64,000 nucleotides of DNA from Gemmatimonadetes bacterium bin94 (GTDB taxonomy: Bacteria > Gemmatimonadota > Gemmatimonadetes > Longimicrobiales > Gaopeijiaceae). Shown piece after piece: positions 48,746-60,502 of the stretch. Location of the stretch: contig MPNE01000005.1 in NCBI GenBank assembly GCA_002238865.1, positions 1-64,000 on the forward strand, written 5' to 3'. The notes under the pieces are model-generated. The model did not search any database and was not told the DNA's origin. It saw only the letters and a list, made by a program, of their open reading frames with translations. Made by a program: the position numbers and the translations under genes. How positions within the stretch are numbered: position 1 is the first letter of the stretch; every line of letters begins with the position of its first letter.

Positions 48746-49714
48746 TTGAACGACGTGTGGAGCACGTGCATCGACCTCGACGGCTACCCCGCGCCGACGG
48801 TGCCGTGGACACCAGCGGCACACGCGGAAGACCGGTCGGCCCTGCGGCCCTGGCGGGCCGCGGTGGGACCCGTGAGGGTGGCCAACGCGCCGGGGGTCGC
48901 CTGGCGTTGGCCGCTCACGGTCGCTGTCTGGAACGCGCGGGTCGGTGGGGGAGCGATTCGGTCGCTGTGGGCTCACCTGGCGCGGGATCGCAGCCCGGTC
49001 ATTCTTCTCCTACAGGAAGTGTTCGCCACCGGACCCGACCTGCCCGAGGCCGGTCCCGGCGCCGCCTGGGCTCCCCGGATCGCCGACGAGCCGCAGTCCG
49101 AACGCCGCACCGACATCGTGTCGCTTGCCCGGGACACCGGCCTCTCCCTGCTGTACGTCCCCTCGATGAGAAACGGGGGCCCGGGTGGGGGTTTCCCCGA
49201 GGATCGGGGCAACGCGATTCTCGCCAACGTGCCGCTCTCGTCTCCGCGCGCGATCGAGCTTTCATTCGAGCGGCAACGGCGCGTCGCCGCGGCGGCCACC
49301 GTCACGACTGCAGAGGGCGACATCGCCTTCTGCTCCTGTCATCTTGACAATCGTGCACCGTGGCGATATATGTGGCGCACGCTGGGTAGCGCGAGGGAGC
49401 GACAGATGGCTGGGCTTCTGGACGCCTTTCCGGGATCGGTCGCGGAAGGAGCATGCGTTCTCGGCGGGGACTTCAACACCTGGGTCGGCGGCCGGCGAGA
49501 ACCGGCCTACAGACTCGCCCGCGACCACTTCCCGCTTCCCCGGAAGCCCGACCCCAACCCCACCCACCACTTCGAGCTCGGAGGCTGGCTGCGCCACTCC
49601 GACCACCTCATGTTCCGTCTTCCGCCCGGTTGGCACGGCGAGTACCGGCGCCTTGACGACACGTTCGGGTCGGATCACTACCCGCTGGTGGGAACGGTGG
49701 GCCCGCTGGCGTAG
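48746..49714 (+). CDS. endonuclease/exonuclease/phosphatase-fold protein
   Basis: A 322-residue EEP-superfamily hydrolase with the usual residues in order: Asn in VAVWNARVG near residue 64, Glu in ILLLQEVFATG, RGNAILANVPLSSPRAIEL, His in FCSCHLDNRAPW, Asp-Asn in LGGDFNTWVGG, and the closing GSDHYPLVGTV with the catalytic Asp-His. It lacks a signal peptide and so probably cleaves phosphodiesters in the cytosol (DNA, RNA or a phospholipid headgroup; specificity not visible). TTG at 48746 is the likely start, divergent from gpmI by 63 bases. A GTCGCC/GGCGAC hairpin at 49720-49732 follows its stop. Confidence 0.82.
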   Translation: MNDVWSTCIDLDGYPAPTVPWTPAAHAEDRSALRPWRAAVGPVRVANAPGVAWRWPLTVAVWNARVGGGAIRSLWAHLARDRSPVILLLQEVFATGPDLPEAGPGAAWAPRIADEPQSERRTDIVSLARDTGLSLLYVPSMRNGGPGGGFPEDRGNAILANVPLSSPRAIELSFERQRRVAAAATVTTAEGDIAFCSCHLDNRAPWRYMWRTLGSARERQMAGLLDAFPGSVAEGACVLGGDFNTWVGGRREPAYRLARDHFPLPRKPDPNPTHHFELGGWLRHSDHLMFRLPPGWHGEYRRLDDTFGSDHYPLVGTVGPLA

Positions 49715-51758: not shown

Positions 51759-52349
51759 TCAGGTGAAGTAAGGATTGTCTCCGCTGTCGTGATCCGTCAC
51801 GTCGTGGATCGCGGTCACTTCCGGGACCGCCTGCGACACCATGCGCTCAACACCCTGACGCAACGTCATACGGGACATGGCGCACCCCTGGCAGCCCCCC
51901 GCCATCTCGATGAAGATCTCCGTGTCCTGTACGTCCACCAGGTTGATCACGCCCCCGTGCGACGCGATCGCCGGGTTGATCTCGGTTTCGAGGACGTGGC
52001 TGACCCGCTGCGCCAGGGCACCCTGCGGGCCCGCGCTCTCAATGGCGGTCTTGGCGGTTTCGGGGTCCGGGGTGATCTGGAATCCGCTCTCCTGGATGGT
52101 CTCGATGAAGTCCACCTTCGCCCCGTTCAGGCGGTCGACGCTCGCTTCGTCGACCAGCACGCTGAACTGGCCCGCATCGACTTCAATATCCGATTCCGAG
52201 CGGTTCTCGGCTTCCACGAGGGTGAGTTCGTAGTTGGGAGCGAAGGGACTTCCCTCGACCGCTATCCGCAGTGATTGAAGCCCGTCTTCTTCCAGGTCCA
52301 TGAAGGAGAGCACCATGTCCCGGGCTCTATCGGTAAACGTCAGTTTCAT
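51759..52349 (-). CDS. nfuA: NfuA-like Fe-S cluster carrier
   Basis: A 196-residue protein. The N-terminal 100 residues form an A-type-like fold ([18 protein letters not shown], then [31 protein letters not shown], and [12 protein letters not shown]). The C-terminal Nfu domain has the cluster-binding CxxC in [15 protein letters not shown] and the preceding [20 protein letters not shown]. The two-domain order equals that of E. coli NfuA. It delivers 4Fe-4S clusters to apo-proteins, for example the YdiJ-like enzyme of this window. ATG at 52349 has GAGGA five bases upstream; a longer start lacks one. The A-type half lacks the usual cysteines, as in NfuA. Confidence 0.92.
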
Positions 52350-52433
52350 TTTGTTCCTCTGGGTCGGATGAAGCAATCGACTGTTGAATATGCCTAGATG
52401 ACGGGGGCGGTGTCCACATGGGGAACCGAAGTC

Positions 52434-55400
52434 CTAGTCCAGTAATCCCTCAAGCGCGCCTGCGGCTTCCCAGCCCGCGTCGGAACGAGACAACCGGCGC
52501 CGCTGTGCGCTGGATAGCCAGGCCACCCGGCTGCCGGCAGCGCCTCGGGTAACCGCCAGCACGTCATCGATCTGCTCGGCGACGGCCCGCACATGCGAAA
52601 TCACGCCGACCATGCGGCCGCGCGCGGCCACGCTGGCCAGAGCCTCGAGCGCGGCGTCCAGGTTGTGCCGGTCGAGTGATCCGAACCCTTCATCGAGGAA
52701 CAGTGACTCCAGGCGTCCGCCGCTGCGGGCCATCATCTCAACCATGCCGAGCGCCAGCGCCAGGGAGCCGATGAACTGTTCTCCGCCCGACAAGCTTGCC
52801 GGAGAGCGCGGCTGTCCGGAGTCCTGGTCCAGGACACGCCACTGATCCTCGGCTTCTCCCGGGTCGACGAAGGCGTACTTGCCGCCGGTCATCTCGCCCA
52901 GCATGCGGGAAGCGTGAACGAGAAGCTCCCTGGACCGCCGAAGGGTGAGCCACTTCAGAAACGCACCGGGTTTGAGGGCGGCGTCGAGGTCGCCCAGCAC
53001 TCGCTCCATGGCGACCACTTCTTCCGTCTGGGTGCGGAGACGAATGACTTCGTCGACGATCTCGGCGAACGCGTCCCGCAGTTCCGTGGCTCTCCGTGCC
53101 CGGTAGCGGGCATTGTTGGCAGCGTTTTCGGCCGTACGAACGAGGGAGTCGGGGTCATCGGGATCCATGTCGAAGCGGTGCGCGATTTCGAGCAGGGCCG
53201 TGCGGGCCGCGTCCGCGTCCCTGGACGCATCGGTGCACTGCTGGTCGGCAGCTCGCAGCACGTCGGTCATGGCCGTGCGCAAACCATCGATCCAGCGCCG
53301 GAGGGGTCCAGGTTCGGACGCGGGCACGGGGGCGGGAACCGCGACGCCGCATTCGAGTTCGCGGATCGCACCGCCGAGTTGGTAGCGCTGCTCCGACAGC
53401 TCGCGCACGACGGACCCGAGCGGGCCATCGACTTCGTCGGTCCGGCGTTGCACCAGGTCGGCGCGGGACTTGAGCACATGGTCGATCTGCCCGCGCAGCA
53501 TGGCGCGCAGACTGTCCCGTTCGGTGAGCTGGTGGTGGCGCGCCTTGGCGACGCCAAGTGCGGCGTCCACGGGCGAGGTGTCCACCGTTTGCAGATCGAG
53601 GGGGTCGGCGGGGAGGGGGAGCCGGGGCCGAAACGGGACCGGAATCGAACCGATCTTCCGAGTGAGGTCCCCCAGCACCGACGTGGCCGCTTGCCTGGTA
53701 TCGTGGGCACGTTTGGAGTCGCCCCGCCCCGCTTCCCGGGCAGTAGCCGCTGCCCTGCCCGCGTACCTGGCCCGATCAGCGAGGTCATCACGGACGCGGT
53801 CGTGGGCGTCTACCCGGGCGATCGCTTCCCGCAGGGCGGCCTCCAGCGAGCCTAGCAGCGAGGCTGGCTCGGGGAGGGGAGCGTCGAGGTCATCCGTCCC
53901 CGGGCCCCCCTGACCGAGTGCTTCCAGACCCTCCCGAAGAGCGTCCCGCGCGGCCGAGAGAGCGTCCCCCAATTCCCGGAGCCGCTTCTCGCCGCCTTGC
54001 TGTTCGGCCGTCAGCCCGGCGACGCGCATGCCCGCTTCCCGGGCCAGAGCGCCCGCCTCCCCGGCCGCTTGCTTCGCATCGTCGAGGCCACCGTCGCCGG
54101 GAGCTGTCCACGCAGCGGGGAGATCGCGGCGACAAATGGGGCAGTCGTCGCCCGGGTGGAGGCCGTGGGCAGCCGCGGCCGCGGAGTTGGCGCGTCTCGC
54201 CTCGGCGTGCACGGCATCCGCCGCATCCGCCGCTGCTCTGGCTCCTCCTTCCTGCTTCATGGCGATGTCGAGCCGCGTAGCCAGCTCGGCCTGCTCCCGG
54301 CGCGCCGCATCGAGCTTCTCCCGCGCGGCTGCCACGCCGCGCTTGTGATCCGCACACGCGTCATACTGGCGTTCTATTCGCTCCAGGTTCCGGCGGGCCG
54401 TGTCGGCCGCTTCGGTGAGCAGTGGCCTGCCAGCGTCGTGGTCCACCAGCACCTTCTCGGCCCGGGCCGACTCCGCTTCCGCCGTCTCCGAGCGCGTCCG
54501 GCTCTCCGACGCTGCCCCGATCGCTTCACGCAACACTCCGGCCATTGCTACGGCGCGCTCCGCCAGCCCGGCCACGTCGTTCAAGCCGGCCCGCGCCGCG
54601 GCGACGTCCTCGTGGGCCGGCCCGTCGTCGGTCGGAATGCCCGCCAACGCTGCTCTGAAGCCTTCCTCGCTCTGCGCCAGCCGTCCGTCCTCCTCTTCGA
54701 TCCGCTGCATGACGTCCTCGACCGGCGTCAGCTGGCCGGCCAGGCGATCGATTTCACCCGGGCGAATCCGCTCCGCGACCGCCTTGGCCGACCTCAGCGC
54801 CCTCTCGGATGCGAGGAGCGTATCGCGCGCAGCCTTTGCCGCATTCGCCGTCGCCGCTTCGGTGTCGGATTCCTTGCTTGCGGCGGCGGCCGCGCCCTCA
54901 AGCGCTTCAAGGTGTCCTGCCGGGTCCGGCGGGTGCTCATCGCCAGCCTGCTCCAGCCGTGCCCTCAGCTGTCGGATGTCACCCATCTTTTCGCCAGCCA
55001 GCCGTCCCATCTGTTCCAGCTCGTCCGTGCGCCACACCTGCCTGAGGATGCGGCTGCGCTCTGCCGGCTTGTCCTCGACCAGCAGCTGCGCGAAGCGTCC
55101 CTGGGGCAGCACGACCGTGCGCAGGAACGCATCGCTGTCGAGCCCGATGAGTCCGGTGACCCGATCGTTGACGACCCTGACCTGCTCGACCTTCTCCAGC
55201 GGCTCGCCATCGGCACCAAGATGCACGAGCTGCGCCCGTGCGGCACCGACATCGCCCCGGCTGCTCCGCCGCACCACGCGGGCGACCTCCCATTCTTCCC
55301 CCGATACTCGGAATCGCAGCACCACTCGAAGCTGCGTCGAGGTGTCGTTCATGAGCTCCTGGTTCGACCCGCCGAAGGTCGCCTTCCCGTACAGCGCGTA

Positions 55401-55538
55401 CATCATCGCCTCCAGGATCGACGACTTGCCGGCCCCGGTGTCACCGACCACAGCGATGTGGCTGCGACCTTCGAAGTCGATGGAGACGGGGGCCCGGAAG
55501 GAACGCAGTCCCTCGATCAGAAGATGTACCGGACGCAT
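52434..55538 (-). CDS. sbcC: SbcC/Rad50-like ATPase, exonuclease subunit
   Basis: A 1034-residue SMC-like ATPase. Walker A GDTGAGKSS at residues 32-40; Q-loop region PQGRFAQLLVEDKPAERSRI; long Glu/Ala/Arg-rich coiled-coil arms; zinc hook CPIC in DDCPICRRDL near 466; second coil; ABC signature SLSGGEQFIGSLALALG near 914; Walker B LESLFLDEGFGSLD and ISHV. It forms a complex with SbcD that opens and cleaves DNA ends and hairpins. The ATG lies three bases after the SbcD stop. A C-terminal tail of about 50 residues (GSRVAWLSSAQRRRL) extends beyond the usual end. It is the last gene of a nurA-herA-sbcD-sbcC operon. Confidence 0.95.
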   Translation of the reverse strand: MRPVHLLIEGLRSFRAPVSIDFEGRSHIAVVGDTGAGKSSILEAMMYALYGKATFGGSNQELMNDTSTQLRVVLRFRVSGEEWEVARVVRRSSRGDVGAARAQLVHLGADGEPLEKVEQVRVVNDRVTGLIGLDSDAFLRTVVLPQGRFAQLLVEDKPAERSRILRQVWRTDELEQMGRLAGEKMGDIRQLRARLEQAGDEHPPDPAGHLEALEGAAAAASKESDTEAATANAAKAARDTLLASERALRSAKAVAERIRPGEIDRLAGQLTPVEDVMQRIEEEDGRLAQSEEGFRAALAGIPTDDGPAHEDVAAARAGLNDVAGLAERAVAMAGVLREAIGAASESRTRSETAEAESARAEKVLVDHDAGRPLLTEAADTARRNLERIERQYDACADHKRGVAAAREKLDAARREQAELATRLDIAMKQEGGARAAADAADAVHAEARRANSAAAAAHGLHPGDDCPICRRDLPAAWTAPGDGGLDDAKQAAGEAGALAREAGMRVAGLTAEQQGGEKRLRELGDALSAARDALREGLEALGQGGPGTDDLDAPLPEPASLLGSLEAALREAIARVDAHDRVRDDLADRARYAGRAAATAREAGRGDSKRAHDTRQAATSVLGDLTRKIGSIPVPFRPRLPLPADPLDLQTVDTSPVDAALGVAKARHHQLTERDSLRAMLRGQIDHVLKSRADLVQRRTDEVDGPLGSVVRELSEQRYQLGGAIRELECGVAVPAPVPASEPGPLRRWIDGLRTAMTDVLRAADQQCTDASRDADAARTALLEIAHRFDMDPDDPDSLVRTAENAANNARYRARRATELRDAFAEIVDEVIRLRTQTEEVVAMERVLGDLDAALKPGAFLKWLTLRRSRELLVHASRMLGEMTGGKYAFVDPGEAEDQWRVLDQDSGQPRSPASLSGGEQFIGSLALALGMVEMMARSGGRLESLFLDEGFGSLDRHNLDAALEALASVAARGRMVGVISHVRAVAEQIDDVLAVTRGAAGSRVAWLSSAQRRRLSRSDAGWEAAGALEGLLD

Positions 55539-55541
55539 CGG

Positions 55542-56807
55542 TCAGCCATGCGCTCCCTGCCGCTTGCGCGCCTGTGCCAGCGCGTCGAGCGTCTCGCGGG
55601 CACGCACGGTCAGCGCGGTTACGCCGAAGTCGGGGCCGGCGTCGTGTCCCACGCTCCCCAGCGTCTTGCCGAAGAGCTCCAGCACGGCCGTGTGCGGCGC
55701 CTTTACCCCGCGCGCGGCAGTCTCTCTCCACTCGGCGAAGAGGTCAGCGATATCCGGATCCGGCGCCGAATCGCCCGCCGCCGGCGAGATCGCCCTGGCC
55801 CGGCGGTTCGCGACCTCGTTTGCGATGTTGAAGACCGCGCACGCGGGCGACCACTCCGCCAGCCGGTCGGCGAGGTCGGGAATCGGGTCTTCGGAGGTGA
55901 TGCATGCCTTCAGGATGCAGTTGTCCAGGCCCCCGTCAGCGGCACGCCCTTCCAACTCGGCCAGCGTACCCGCGAAGGTGACCAGGGGCCGCCCCGGGGG
56001 CATTTCCACAGTGTCTACCTGGACATCGTCCGCGATCGCGACCAGCACCGTCTGCTTGGCCTGACCTCCCTCGCCAAAATCCAGCGGGATGAGAGACCCT
56101 GCATAACGCCCCGTAGCCGTCCCGCCCGGCAGCAGCTGCGGGTCGTGGATGTGCCCGAAAGCGCTGTACAGGGCCCGGTGCAGGCCGTCGGCGTGGGTGG
56201 CGTGGTCCTCGCCCACCGTGAATCGGCGCTCGGACGTGCCCGGTCTGGCTCCGTGCACATGCAGGTGCGCGCCGTACAGGACGATGCCTCCCGTACCGGC
56301 CACCCGTTCAGCCTCCGTGAGCAACCTTCCGTTCAGAGTCCGGATGCCGTCCGCGTAGGTGCCCTCGAAGCGCGCGGGGTCGTCGGTGGCGTAGTCTGCG
56401 ACCGCGCCGGGAGGAATGAAGGGCACGCACGCGACCGCCACGGGCTTGCTGGCGATGTCGTGGAATTCGACCACGCGGGGTTCGGTCACGAACCGAAGCC
56501 GGCGGGGCGATGTCGTGCCAGCCATCTCGTCAAGCACTCCGAACAGGGCCGACGAGTCGTGATTGCCGCAAATCACCACGGTCGGCGCAACGCTGGCGAG
56601 CCGCTGCAGGGCGCGCACACCGGTCCGCAACGCCGGGTACGGAGGCCGCGTCGCATCGAACAGGTCCCCGGTGTGCAGGATCAGGTCGGGCCGGGACTCC
56701 TCGGCGAGTTCGATGAGGGCACGAATTGCCGCCAGATGGTCCGGAGTGCGATCGTGCCTGCCCAGTCTGGCTCCGAGATGCCAGTCCGAAGTGTGGAGGA
56801 GCTTCAA
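55542..56807 (-). CDS. sbcD: SbcD/Mre11-like nuclease subunit
   Basis: A 421-residue calcineurin-like phosphoesterase: LLHTSDWHLGARLG with Asp8 and His10, LHTGDLFDATRP, ICGNHDSSALFG, GAHLHVHGA and YSAFGHIHDPQLL provide the two-metal site. The C-terminal part (from about residue 300) is a capping region with RARAISPAAG and a helix ending KRQGAHG. It is the nuclease partner of SbcC. ATG at 56807 overlaps the herA stop by four bases. Confidence 0.94.
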   Translation of the reverse strand: MKLLHTSDWHLGARLGRHDRTPDHLAAIRALIELAEESRPDLILHTGDLFDATRPPYPALRTGVRALQRLASVAPTVVICGNHDSSALFGVLDEMAGTTSPRRLRFVTEPRVVEFHDIASKPVAVACVPFIPPGAVADYATDDPARFEGTYADGIRTLNGRLLTEAERVAGTGGIVLYGAHLHVHGARPGTSERRFTVGEDHATHADGLHRALYSAFGHIHDPQLLPGGTATGRYAGSLIPLDFGEGGQAKQTVLVAIADDVQVDTVEMPPGRPLVTFAGTLAELEGRAADGGLDNCILKACITSEDPIPDLADRLAEWSPACAVFNIANEVANRRARAISPAAGDSAPDPDIADLFAEWRETAARGVKAPHTAVLELFGKTLGSVGHDAGPDFGVTALTVRARETLDALAQARKRQGAHG

Positions 56808-58621
56808 AGATCCACCTTCGGGCCGGACATGGCCCTCAGCGTGCCCGCTATCCGATCCGCGCGTTCACGCTCGGCTGCTTCGTCCACCTGGGCTTCATCC
56901 GGATTGGTGGCAAATGGGGGGAAGGGGAAGCGCAGCGGGATGGGCTCGGGCACGATCGGCTGAGACAGCACCATCGTTCCCGGCATGAACCGCGAGGCGC
57001 GTTCCCTCAGGGCCGAGGTCAGGAACCGGTAGGCGTCGGCTTCGCTGGCGTCGAGCCGGCCGGCCACCTTGAGCGACGCGTTGCGGGGCAGAGCCGGCGC
57101 GACCGCCGTGGCCGCCTGCTGCGCTCCGACCAGCAGTACGCCCAGCGAGCGGCCGCGCTCGGCGATGTCGACGAGCAACTCCCTGAGGGGCGAAAACCCA
57201 CGCGCCGGAGCGTACTTGTTGAGTTCGTCCAGCACGACGAAGCGGAGCGGCGTGCGCCCCGTGCCCTGCTTCTCCCGCCACACCCGGTCCAGAAGTGCGC
57301 CGACGACAAAGCGCTGGGCGTCGTCGTGCAGGGTGGAGATGTCGACGACGTGCATCCGCGCGTTCTCGGCGGACACCGGCTCCAGCCCGCAACCCACGAG
57401 GGGACCGATGTGGCGCCGCAGTCGCAGGAGCCTCCGCAGGTAGGCCTGACGGGTGCCGGATTGTGTGCGGCCGAACCACCGATGCGCCCTTTCGTCGTCA
57501 CTGTCCGCCAGCTTGTCCGTGAAGTCGACAAAGTCGGCGAAGTCCCGGACGACGTGACCCTGGCCGGCTGATGCCGATTCCGGCACCCGCTCGGCGAGGC
57601 GGTCCGGGTTGAAGCCGGTGCTCGCGGGAATTTCGTCCAGAATCACGATGGCGCCCGATGTGTCGCCGGCCAGCCGCCTAAGGTGCCGCAACAGCTGAAT
57701 GCGGAACTGCTGTTCGACGAAGCCGACCTGAGTGGAGCGGTCGTCTTCGGAGGTGAAGCAGAACTGGAGCAGCTGTTCGCGCACGAATTGCTCCGGCGTC
57801 CAGCCGTAGGCGTGCACATCGGCAGTGTTTCGCGATCTCACCCCGGGAACCGCGCCCGTCGTGCCGGGCTGGCGGGGGGCGTAGAGGCGGACCGAGCGGA
57901 ATGGGCCGGGGTCCTCGACGCCTAGCGCCCGCCATTGCCTGGCAGCCAGCGGCTTTTCGTCAAACTCGGAGTTGGGCCGGTCGATGTGGAGAAGATCCTC
58001 GCCCTTGGTGTTGAACACGAGCGCACGGACGCTTTCCCGGCGACTGCGTCCGCCCAGCAGCTCCATGCCGTAGTCGGTTTCGAGGAGCTGATAGAGGAGG
58101 AAGAGCGCGTAGGACGTCTTCGTCGCGACTCCGGAGATCCCGGAAATGGACACATGGCCGCCGGAGCGACCGTCCACGAAGCGCATGTCGGCGTACACCG
58201 GCTTGCCGCCCATGTCGAGTCCGACCGGGAGCTTGCCACGCTTCATCTCGTCCTCGAAAAGCGCTACCTGGCGGTGCTCCCCGGTCGCGCGCGAGACGAC
58301 CGCACCGGCGTGCGGAGCCACGAAGAGCTCCGGCACGACACGCAGTACGCGCACCTCGGCCAGGCGCACATGCTCGGCCGGCATGGTGCGGTCGACCACG
58401 CGGGCCGTGTCGGAGGGCAGGTCCGCGCCCTCGAAACGGCTGCGCAGCTCGGTGATGATCCCGTAGTGGGTAACCGTGTCGCCCCCCGGCAGGTCTCTGG
58501 TGACGGCCACAAGTTCGTCGAGCTGGACGAAGACATCGCCGTCGAGCACGGCGTGAAACGTGCGGGAATTGCTCCCGGCCGACCCATCGACCAGCCCGAT
58601 GCGGTTGTCGTGATCGCTCAT
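56804..58621 (-). CDS. herA: HerA-like DNA translocase/ATPase
   Basis: A 605-residue HerA/FtsK-superfamily ATPase. A HAS-barrel-like N-terminus (DGDVFVQLDELVAVTRDLPG, VRLAEVRVLRVVPELFV, RVSxATGE-type strand) is followed by a P-loop GISGVATKTSYALFLL near 160; the Gly before Lys-Thr is replaced by Thr. Walker B is FVVLDELNKYAP near 462, then an arginine-finger region LLVDIAERGRSLGVLLVGAQ QA and RNASLKVAGRLDASEADAYR. HerA forms hexamers that pump DNA and activate NurA nuclease. Start and stop both overlap neighbours by four bases, so stoichiometry is probably fixed by coupling. Confidence 0.88.
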   Translation of the reverse strand: MSDHDNRIGLVDGSAGSNSRTFHAVLDGDVFVQLDELVAVTRDLPGGDTVTHYGIITELRSRFEGADLPSDTARVVDRTMPAEHVRLAEVRVLRVVPELFVAPHAGAVVSRATGEHRQVALFEDEMKRGKLPVGLDMGGKPVYADMRFVDGRSGGHVSISGISGVATKTSYALFLLYQLLETDYGMELLGGRSRRESVRALVFNTKGEDLLHIDRPNSEFDEKPLAARQWRALGVEDPGPFRSVRLYAPRQPGTTGAVPGVRSRNTADVHAYGWTPEQFVREQLLQFCFTSEDDRSTQVGFVEQQFRIQLLRHLRRLAGDTSGAIVILDEIPASTGFNPDRLAERVPESASAGQGHVVRDFADFVDFTDKLADSDDERAHRWFGRTQSGTRQAYLRRLLRLRRHIGPLVGCGLEPVSAENARMHVVDISTLHDDAQRFVVGALLDRVWREKQGTGRTPLRFVVLDELNKYAPARGFSPLRELLVDIAERGRSLGVLLVGAQQAATAVAPALPRNASLKVAGRLDASEADAYRFLTSALRERASRFMPGTMVLSQPIVPEPIPLRFPFPPFATNPDEAQVDEAAERERADRIAGTLRAMSGPKVDL

Positions 58622-59583
58622 GCGGCTGCGTCCCGGTTCAGATGCATCACGGCTTCGCGAACCGCGCGGAGAGCGAGGCGCGCGTCGCCAAGAAGGTGGT
58701 GCAGCCTGCGTTCCAGGCCCGCGACGGGGGTGAGGTTGACCGGCGCGCGGGGGTCCCGGTGCGGTGCCGACGCGAACTCCGGGAGCCACCGGGCCGCCCG
58801 ATCCACCGTGTCGATCGCGGCCTCCCTGCCGGCGGCGGCGGGAACCTCGATGCGCGCGATCCCCGACCACGGCCCCGCCCAGGGACCCGGATCGCCCACG
58901 CGGATATAACACGCGTAGAGGTCGTCTCGAAGCGCGAAAAGGCTCGACCGATCACCGACTCCGATGCGCGGCAGGGCGTTCCAGTGTTCGGGCGCGAGGG
59001 TGCGGCGGTGGTGGGTTTTGACGTATCCCACGACAGGGACGGACCGACTGCGCCGGATGTTGTGGAGCGGGCCGTCGAAGACCGTCAGCCACCCCTCGGC
59101 ACAGAGCCTGTCGGCGATCCGGGCCTCCGTGTCGCGCATGAGGCGCTGGAGGTTCTGCATGGCCGCGTCGGTGTCGTCCCCATCGACCGAGTACGCGTCC
59201 CACCGCCACCCCTCGCGGTGGGGGCGCAGCTGCACCTGGTGTCCACCCGTGAAAATGACCGCCCGCCCGGTTTCGATGTGGTCGATCGTGGCGAGCCGTT
59301 CGCCGCCGATCAGCACGGCGCCTGCTCCCCACGCTCCCGCGAGTCCAGTCGTGGTCTCGCCCACGGGACTCGTCCGCGTCAGGTGGGCCTCCGTCCTCCT
59401 CACGCCATCCACGAAACAGAGACGGGATGGGCGGTCGGCACGTGCGGGGCTGTGAATGCGCAAGTCCCCTCCATCCTCGACGATGCTACATTCGATTGCC
59501 TGCGCCTCATCGTCCTGTGCCTGAAAACCCGTGCCGTAGGAAACATCGAACGGTTCGACACCGATGAAGGTCTTTGAGTCCAT
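58618..59583 (-). CDS. nurA: NurA-like nuclease
   Basis: A 321-residue protein with the NurA-domain acidic motifs: Asp in SRLCFVDGVRRTEAHL near residue 54 and Asp in TVFDGPLHNIRRSR near 171, then VVGYVKTHHRRTLAPEH, LFALRDDLYACYIRV and GIARIEVPAAAGREAAID. NurA is a metal-dependent 5'-3' nuclease with RNase H-like fold that works with HerA. The gene is first in an operon and overlaps herA (ATGA). ATG at 59583 fits the family; the frame is open to 59688. The assignment rests on motif spacing and on the herA neighbour; the family is weakly conserved. Confidence 0.8.
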   Translation of the reverse strand: MDSKTFIGVEPFDVSYGTGFQAQDDEAQAIECSIVEDGGDLRIHSPARADRPSRLCFVDGVRRTEAHLTRTSPVGETTTGLAGAWGAGAVLIGGERLATIDHIETGRAVIFTGGHQVQLRPHREGWRWDAYSVDGDDTDAAMQNLQRLMRDTEARIADRLCAEGWLTVFDGPLHNIRRSRSVPVVGYVKTHHRRTLAPEHWNALPRIGVGDRSSLFALRDDLYACYIRVGDPGPWAGPWSGIARIEVPAAAGREAAIDTVDRAARWLPEFASAPHRDPRAPVNLTPVAGLERRLHHLLGDARLALRAVREAVMHLNRDAAA

Positions 59584-59659
59584 GGCGGCCACGAATACTT
59601 GGACGGGCACACTGCGAAGGGCCGAGCGCTCCAGGCGCCCGCTGGAAGGAAAACCTAAC

Positions 59660-60502
59660 ATGAAGACCATCGCAATCACCGGCGCCAACCGCGGCGTCGG
59701 CCACGCTGCCGCCTGCCACCTCGCGAGCCAGGGTCATCGCATCGTCCTGGTATGCAGGGACGAGGGACGCGGCAGGGAGGCCCTCGACGCCCTGGCCGAC
59801 CTTCCCGGGGACGCTCGCCACCACCTCGTCACCGCCGACCTCGCGTCGCTCGACTCGGTGCGGGCCGGCGCACGCGCGATCCTGGAGCTGGACACGCCCG
59901 TTGACGCGCTGATCAACAATGCGGCCACCGTGCCGGGCGAGCGGATGCTCAGCCAGGACGGTTTCGAGATGCAGCTTGCGGTCACGCACCTCGCGCACTT
60001 CGTGCTGACCAACCTGTTGCTGCCCGCCTTGCAGCGCGCGCCGGTGCCCAGCCGCGTCGTCACGGTGTCGTCGGGGGCGCACGGGGGACCCGCCTTCGAC
60101 TTCGACGATCCGAACTTCGAGCGGCGTCCCTACCGGACCACCGTCGCGTATCAGCAAAGCAAGCTGGCCAACGTCCTCTTCACCGGCGCCCTCGCCCGCC
60201 GGACCGCGGGATCCGGCGTGCAGCCACTGGCGTTGCATCCGGGCGTGTACGACACCGGGCTGCTCCGCGACTACGTGAGCAAGTTGCCGGGCGGCCGGTT
60301 CCTCGCACGGGTCGTCGGCGGCCGGACGGAGAGGGCCGGGCCCATACTGGCCGACCTTGCGGTGGGCAGGCGGGACGAGGACCTTGGCGGCGCATATTTC
60401 AACAAGGGGTCGCGGCAATCGCCCTCGGCCGCCGCGAGGGACGAGGCCGCGCAGGAGCGGCTTTGGGCCTGGAGTGCGGAGGCGACGGGGCTGGACGTCT
60501 AG
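59660..60502 (+). CDS. short-chain dehydrogenase/reductase (retinol-dehydrogenase-like)
   Basis: A 280-residue SDR with IAITGANRGVGHAAACHLAS at the N-terminus, VCRDEGRG (an Arg typical of NADP use), the NAA motif in ALINNAATVPGE, catalytic Ser in VVTVSSGAHGG, and Tyr-Lys in YQQSKLANVLF. The last two segments are typical of the retinol/WW-domain oxidoreductase SDR group. AAGGA lies eight bases before the ATG at 59660. It is divergent from nurA; no clear functional link. Confidence 0.87.
   Translation: MKTIAITGANRGVGHAAACHLASQGHRIVLVCRDEGRGREALDALADLPGDARHHLVTADLASLDSVRAGARAILELDTPVDALINNAATVPGERMLSQDGFEMQLAVTHLAHFVLTNLLLPALQRAPVPSRVVTVSSGAHGGPAFDFDDPNFERRPYRTTVAYQQSKLANVLFTGALARRTAGSGVQPLALHPGVYDTGLLRDYVSKLPGGRFLARVVGGRTERAGPILADLAVGRRDEDLGGAYFNKGSRQSPSAAARDEAAQERLWAWSAEATGLDV

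Follow-up and report, generated by a model that had tools for sequence, protein, structure and literature searches.

The nurA-herA-sbcD-sbcC operon of a Gemmatimonadota bacterium and the varying occupancy of its chromosomal address

Do HerA-NurA and SbcCD form one DNA-end-processing unit in bacteria, and is their joint encoding exceptional there? Archaeal operons, such as those of Sulfolobus and Pyrococcus, bring together herA, nurA, mre11 and rad50, and joint end resection has been proposed for their products. The same four families occur side by side in Gemmatimonadetes bacterium bin94, within the window analysed here, a stretch of 64,000 nucleotides at the start of contig MPNE01000005.1. 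A sequence-only reading of this window had described a four-gene operon unusual in bacteria, encoding one machine with fixed stoichiometry that serves either repair or defence against phage DNA. Is the operon genuine, how common is it, and what do its products do?

Layout of the operon and identity of its products

Four adjoining minus-strand genes were found at the positions given by that reading, and the open reading frames match. The genes and their surroundings are as follows:

51759..52349, minus strand: nfuA (NifU/Fe-S scaffold), conserved downstream flank (PF01106, 2.5e-22; synteny)
52387..52416, minus strand: promoter-like site of nfuA, TGGACA-18-CATATT, downstream edge of the block (motif)
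52434..55538, minus strand: sbcC, 1034 aa, Rad50-type ABC ATPase with zinc hook CPIC
55542..56807, minus strand: sbcD, 421 aa, Mre11-type phosphodiesterase, TTG start
56804..58621, minus strand: herA, 605 aa, predicted DNA translocase of the D. radiodurans HerA type
58618..59583, minus strand: nurA, 321 aa, RNase H-like exo/endonuclease NurA (predicted activity)
59660..60502, plus strand: short-chain dehydrogenase (SDR) gene, conserved upstream flank, divergent from nurA (PF00106, 9.3e-24; synteny)

As claimed earlier, nurA and herA share an ATGA overlap (58621-58618) and 3 nt separate sbcD from sbcC (55539-55541); the second ATGA, placed between herA and sbcD, is really TTGA. The start of sbcD is assigned to a TTG because the N-terminus MKLLHT(S/A)DWHLG is conserved among relatives. 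Since nurA, herA, sbcD and sbcC are collinear in many relatives, the arrangement is not due to chance, and the four genes are a genuine, tightly packed chromosomal operon of a bacterium, presumably transcribed as a single mRNA. A pattern search 3' of sbcC found no terminator. The block sits between the SDR gene and nfuA-pyrC, and the flanking genes scanned are housekeeping genes. A motif similar to the promoter-like site of nfuA is present in several congeners whose SDR-nfuA site is empty; the retention of this site in the window and in several empty sites bounds the block by the SDR start on one side and the promoter-like site on the other. Beyond pyrC, an endonuclease/exonuclease/phosphatase-like gene (window 48746-49714, plus strand; family judged by eye) is conserved in several relatives.

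The identity of NurA, on which the earlier reading had hinged, is borne out by profile, sequence and fold. The protein matches PF09376 with 28.4 bits (cut-off 21) and D. radiodurans NurA (DrNurA, 7f6d) with 2.3e-14, and the model of its structure, with a mean pLDDT of 74, resembles 1zup (TM1739, Z 19.0), 7f6d_G (DrNurA, Z 17.9) and 2ygk (Sulfolobus NurA, Z 12.1); residues D59, E153, D170, K189 and H275 are invariant. HerA has no Pfam match at E 0.1, and hence none to DUF87 (PF01935). In phmmer, it aligns over its full length (residues 6-596) with D. radiodurans HerA (DrHerA, 7f6d_B) at 3.9e-103, and the two have the same unusual Walker A ISGISGVATKTS. Its Walker A GISGVATKTS (K168/T169), D209 and Walker B D465/E466 align with K175/T176, D220 and D487/E488, catalytic residues named for DrHerA in PMC9960219. 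SbcD exceeds the TIGR00619 cut-off (118.7 bits against 77.65) and keeps the phosphodiesterase residues D8, H10, D48, N82, H83, H181, H219 and H221 invariant. SbcC scores 190 bits with TIGR00618, under the model cut-off, and exceeds the Pfam cut-offs for AAA_23 and SbcC_Walker_B; it is full length, with both ATPase halves and a zinc hook whose cysteines, C466 and C469, are invariant. In contrast to the archaeal operons, SbcC and SbcD are of bacterial type and HerA is of DrHerA type, and phmmer found no archaeal HerA chain.

Distribution of the linkage among bacteria

The view that this operon is unusual in bacteria is rejected by a genome survey. A single draw of 160 Gemmatimonadota genomes contained 109 with HerA and 121 with SbcC; 108 genomes have both, 1 has HerA only, 13 have SbcC only and 38 have neither, a co-occurrence with a Fisher p of about 2e-24 when shared ancestry is ignored. 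Among the genomes with both genes, positions are listed for 96, and in 80 of these herA and sbcC are no more than 8 kb apart. A HerA search retrieved the same block from Gemmatimonadota, Vicinamibacteria and Gammaproteobacteria, and from one Spirochaetaceae and one Euzebyaceae genome. HerA also occurs in 62 of 198 Actinomycetota genomes, and all four genes lie nearby at 18 of the 20 HerA loci inspected in this phylum, which are mostly top matches and not a random sample. Strong HerA matches were obtained in 2 of 199 Acidobacteriota genomes, and in the gammaproteobacterial class searched 1 of 185 genomes has HerA. Each of these counts includes the genome around which the search was built, so the set is rare in both groups.

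In Oceanithermus profundus, as reported by Blesa et al. 2017 (PMC5448004), herA (hepA) is followed downstream by sbcD and sbcC, a bacterial herA-sbcD-sbcC architecture from another phylum that is likened to the present one by gene order alone. No paper describing herA-nurA/sbcDC linkage in Gemmatimonadota or Actinobacteria turned up in our literature searches, and the linkage in bacteria may have been noted before. Linked herA-sbcDC, usually with nurA, is thus routine in Gemmatimonadota, common among the inspected HerA loci of Actinomycetota and already on record for Oceanithermus. The four-gene operon is ordinary for its phylum, which lowers its novelty and leaves its reality unaffected. Many members of the family have neither HerA nor SbcC, which makes the function dispensable at the family level.

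Diverged sets at one address

Three groups of HerA can be distinguished. Type A is that of the window; identity to it is about 45% for type B and about 34% for type C, and DrHerA is the best solved relative of all three alike. Type B proteins are about 32-47% identical to type A. In the window's genus, HerA was typed in 12 members: it is type A in 8 and type B in 4, and no genome has both types or neither. The SDR-nfuA junction was scored in 22 congeners with nfuA, as type A where a type A sbcC adjoins nfuA and as type B where a type B herA adjoins nfuA on the other strand. It is empty in 11 (for example L157 and L160), holds type A in 8, as at window positions 52350-59659, holds type B in 2 (genomes G064 and G151; example loci L088 and L091) and something else in 1. 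At the type B loci of this junction, the gene order is herA-sbcD-sbcC-nurA, on the strand opposite to type A. In genomes G017, G058, G061, G097 and G152, a set is located elsewhere despite an empty SDR-nfuA site.

A hybrid operon, which rests on one metagenome-scale assembly, is present in G035, a genome of a sister genus (L090:9154-11933, minus strand). Here, a type A nurA lies directly upstream of type B herA-sbcD-sbcC; the nurA is 71% identical to that of the window, and the herA, sbcD and sbcC are 75, 68 and 56% identical to those of L091. What is new here is the junction that is empty, type A or type B within one genus, together with this hybrid in a sister genus. We consider it likely that the four-gene set is a core yet exchangeable repair cassette in the genus, each tested genome carrying one of two diverged versions. 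For the mechanism of a swap between sets, homologous recombination in the flanks would be the simplest guess.

Functional unit, probable end resection and alternative readings

How closely are the four products bound to each other? Their pairwise distances correlate with r of 0.92-0.97 across 16 type A loci, a comparison made without an outside control gene, so that shared host descent contributes to it. The genes themselves are less strictly joined in relatives: herA and sbcD are parted by insertions ranging from 1.2 to about 9 kb (L008, L006, L005/L083), L032 has an extra gene between sbcD and sbcC, and the two halves of the operon are split or on separate contigs in some relatives, e.g. G053, G127 and G059, some of which are perhaps contig breaks. 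Inserts at L006:7838-15190, L005:10810-19806 and L032:4147-5106 hold restriction-like genes (Mrr_cat_2, GmrSD_N, DUF4268), DUF3800 and AAA genes. At L005, the 3' end of herA (model positions 532-604) is present a second time, at L005:12500-12760 (equal to G138:C73:17728-17946), some 1.8 kb away from the complete gene, possibly as the trace of an insertion event. Inserts and split halves indicate that tight linkage is not essential. Of the proposed machine with fixed stoichiometry, the functional unit is upheld by co-occurrence, co-divergence and whole-block swaps, whereas the inserts and split halves speak against taking the fixed stoichiometry as proven.

The split loci could also mean that HerA-NurA and SbcCD are two separate modules, neighbours by operon convenience without a common machine, and in Thermus nurA-herA indeed has no adjoining DNA-repair genes (PMC5448004). 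Against this, HerA and SbcC co-occur across the phylum, the four proteins co-diverge and all four genes are exchanged together at one address, which makes two independent modules quite unlikely. A defence unit, the alternative that the sequence-only reading had left standing, would use HerA-NurA and SbcCD to degrade the ends of incoming phage or plasmid DNA, like TdpAB or other HerA-based systems. TdpAB is a HerA-NurA-like complex linked to phosphorothioate DNA, and its nuclease shares the NurA fold of the window protein (8wfd_G, Z 10.1), more distantly than DrNurA does. HerA has weak PADLOC similarity to mad8 and HerA models (best mad8, 49.9 bits), NurA has no PADLOC match, and membership in MADS was set aside for the mad8/mad3 matches because the similarity is at the level of the ATPase and the flanks are housekeeping. 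The block does change place between genomes, and its junctions in relatives gather the restriction-like genes named above. But no defence partner directly adjoins it in the window, where the scanned neighbours are housekeeping genes; it holds the only SbcC gene found in its own genome; and all 12 congeners examined have one set, whereas defence systems occur sporadically. The defence reading therefore finds little support and appears improbable.

End resection by a functional unit accommodates these observations better, and the four products probably work one after another at DNA double-strand breaks. SbcCD, of the Mre11-Rad50 type, would bind and open blocked or hairpin ends; the HerA hexamer would then pump duplex DNA into the NurA dimer, which would degrade it to give recombinogenic single strands for RecA. 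The proposed order of SbcCD, then HerA, then NurA draws on archaeal work and on DrHerA-NurA, for which resection of DNA ends in vitro is documented (PMC9960219), and HerA-NurA and SbcCD may form a joint complex. The operon was also considered as a stand-in for AddAB/RecBCD, and this was ruled out: the bacterium's own genome has AddB-like (1062 aa) and AddA-like (1156 aa) genes side by side (L078). With AddAB present, the operon is not the sole resection route and would be additional or specialised.

HerA-NurA and SbcCD are encoded together in bacteria as well as in archaea, and this touches on the question of whether bacterial HerA-NurA works with SbcCD, which has been left open for Deinococcus (PMC4663267). 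Most worth following are the natural hybrid and the replacement of one complete, diverged set by another at a single address; both offer ready combinations with which to ask which of the four proteins need to be matched. On balance, the chances are about even that DNA-end resection in bacteria is the work of exchangeable four-gene cassettes, with diverged versions of different internal order replaced as a unit at a shared address within a genus, and with parts that, as the G035 hybrid suggests, can be mixed.
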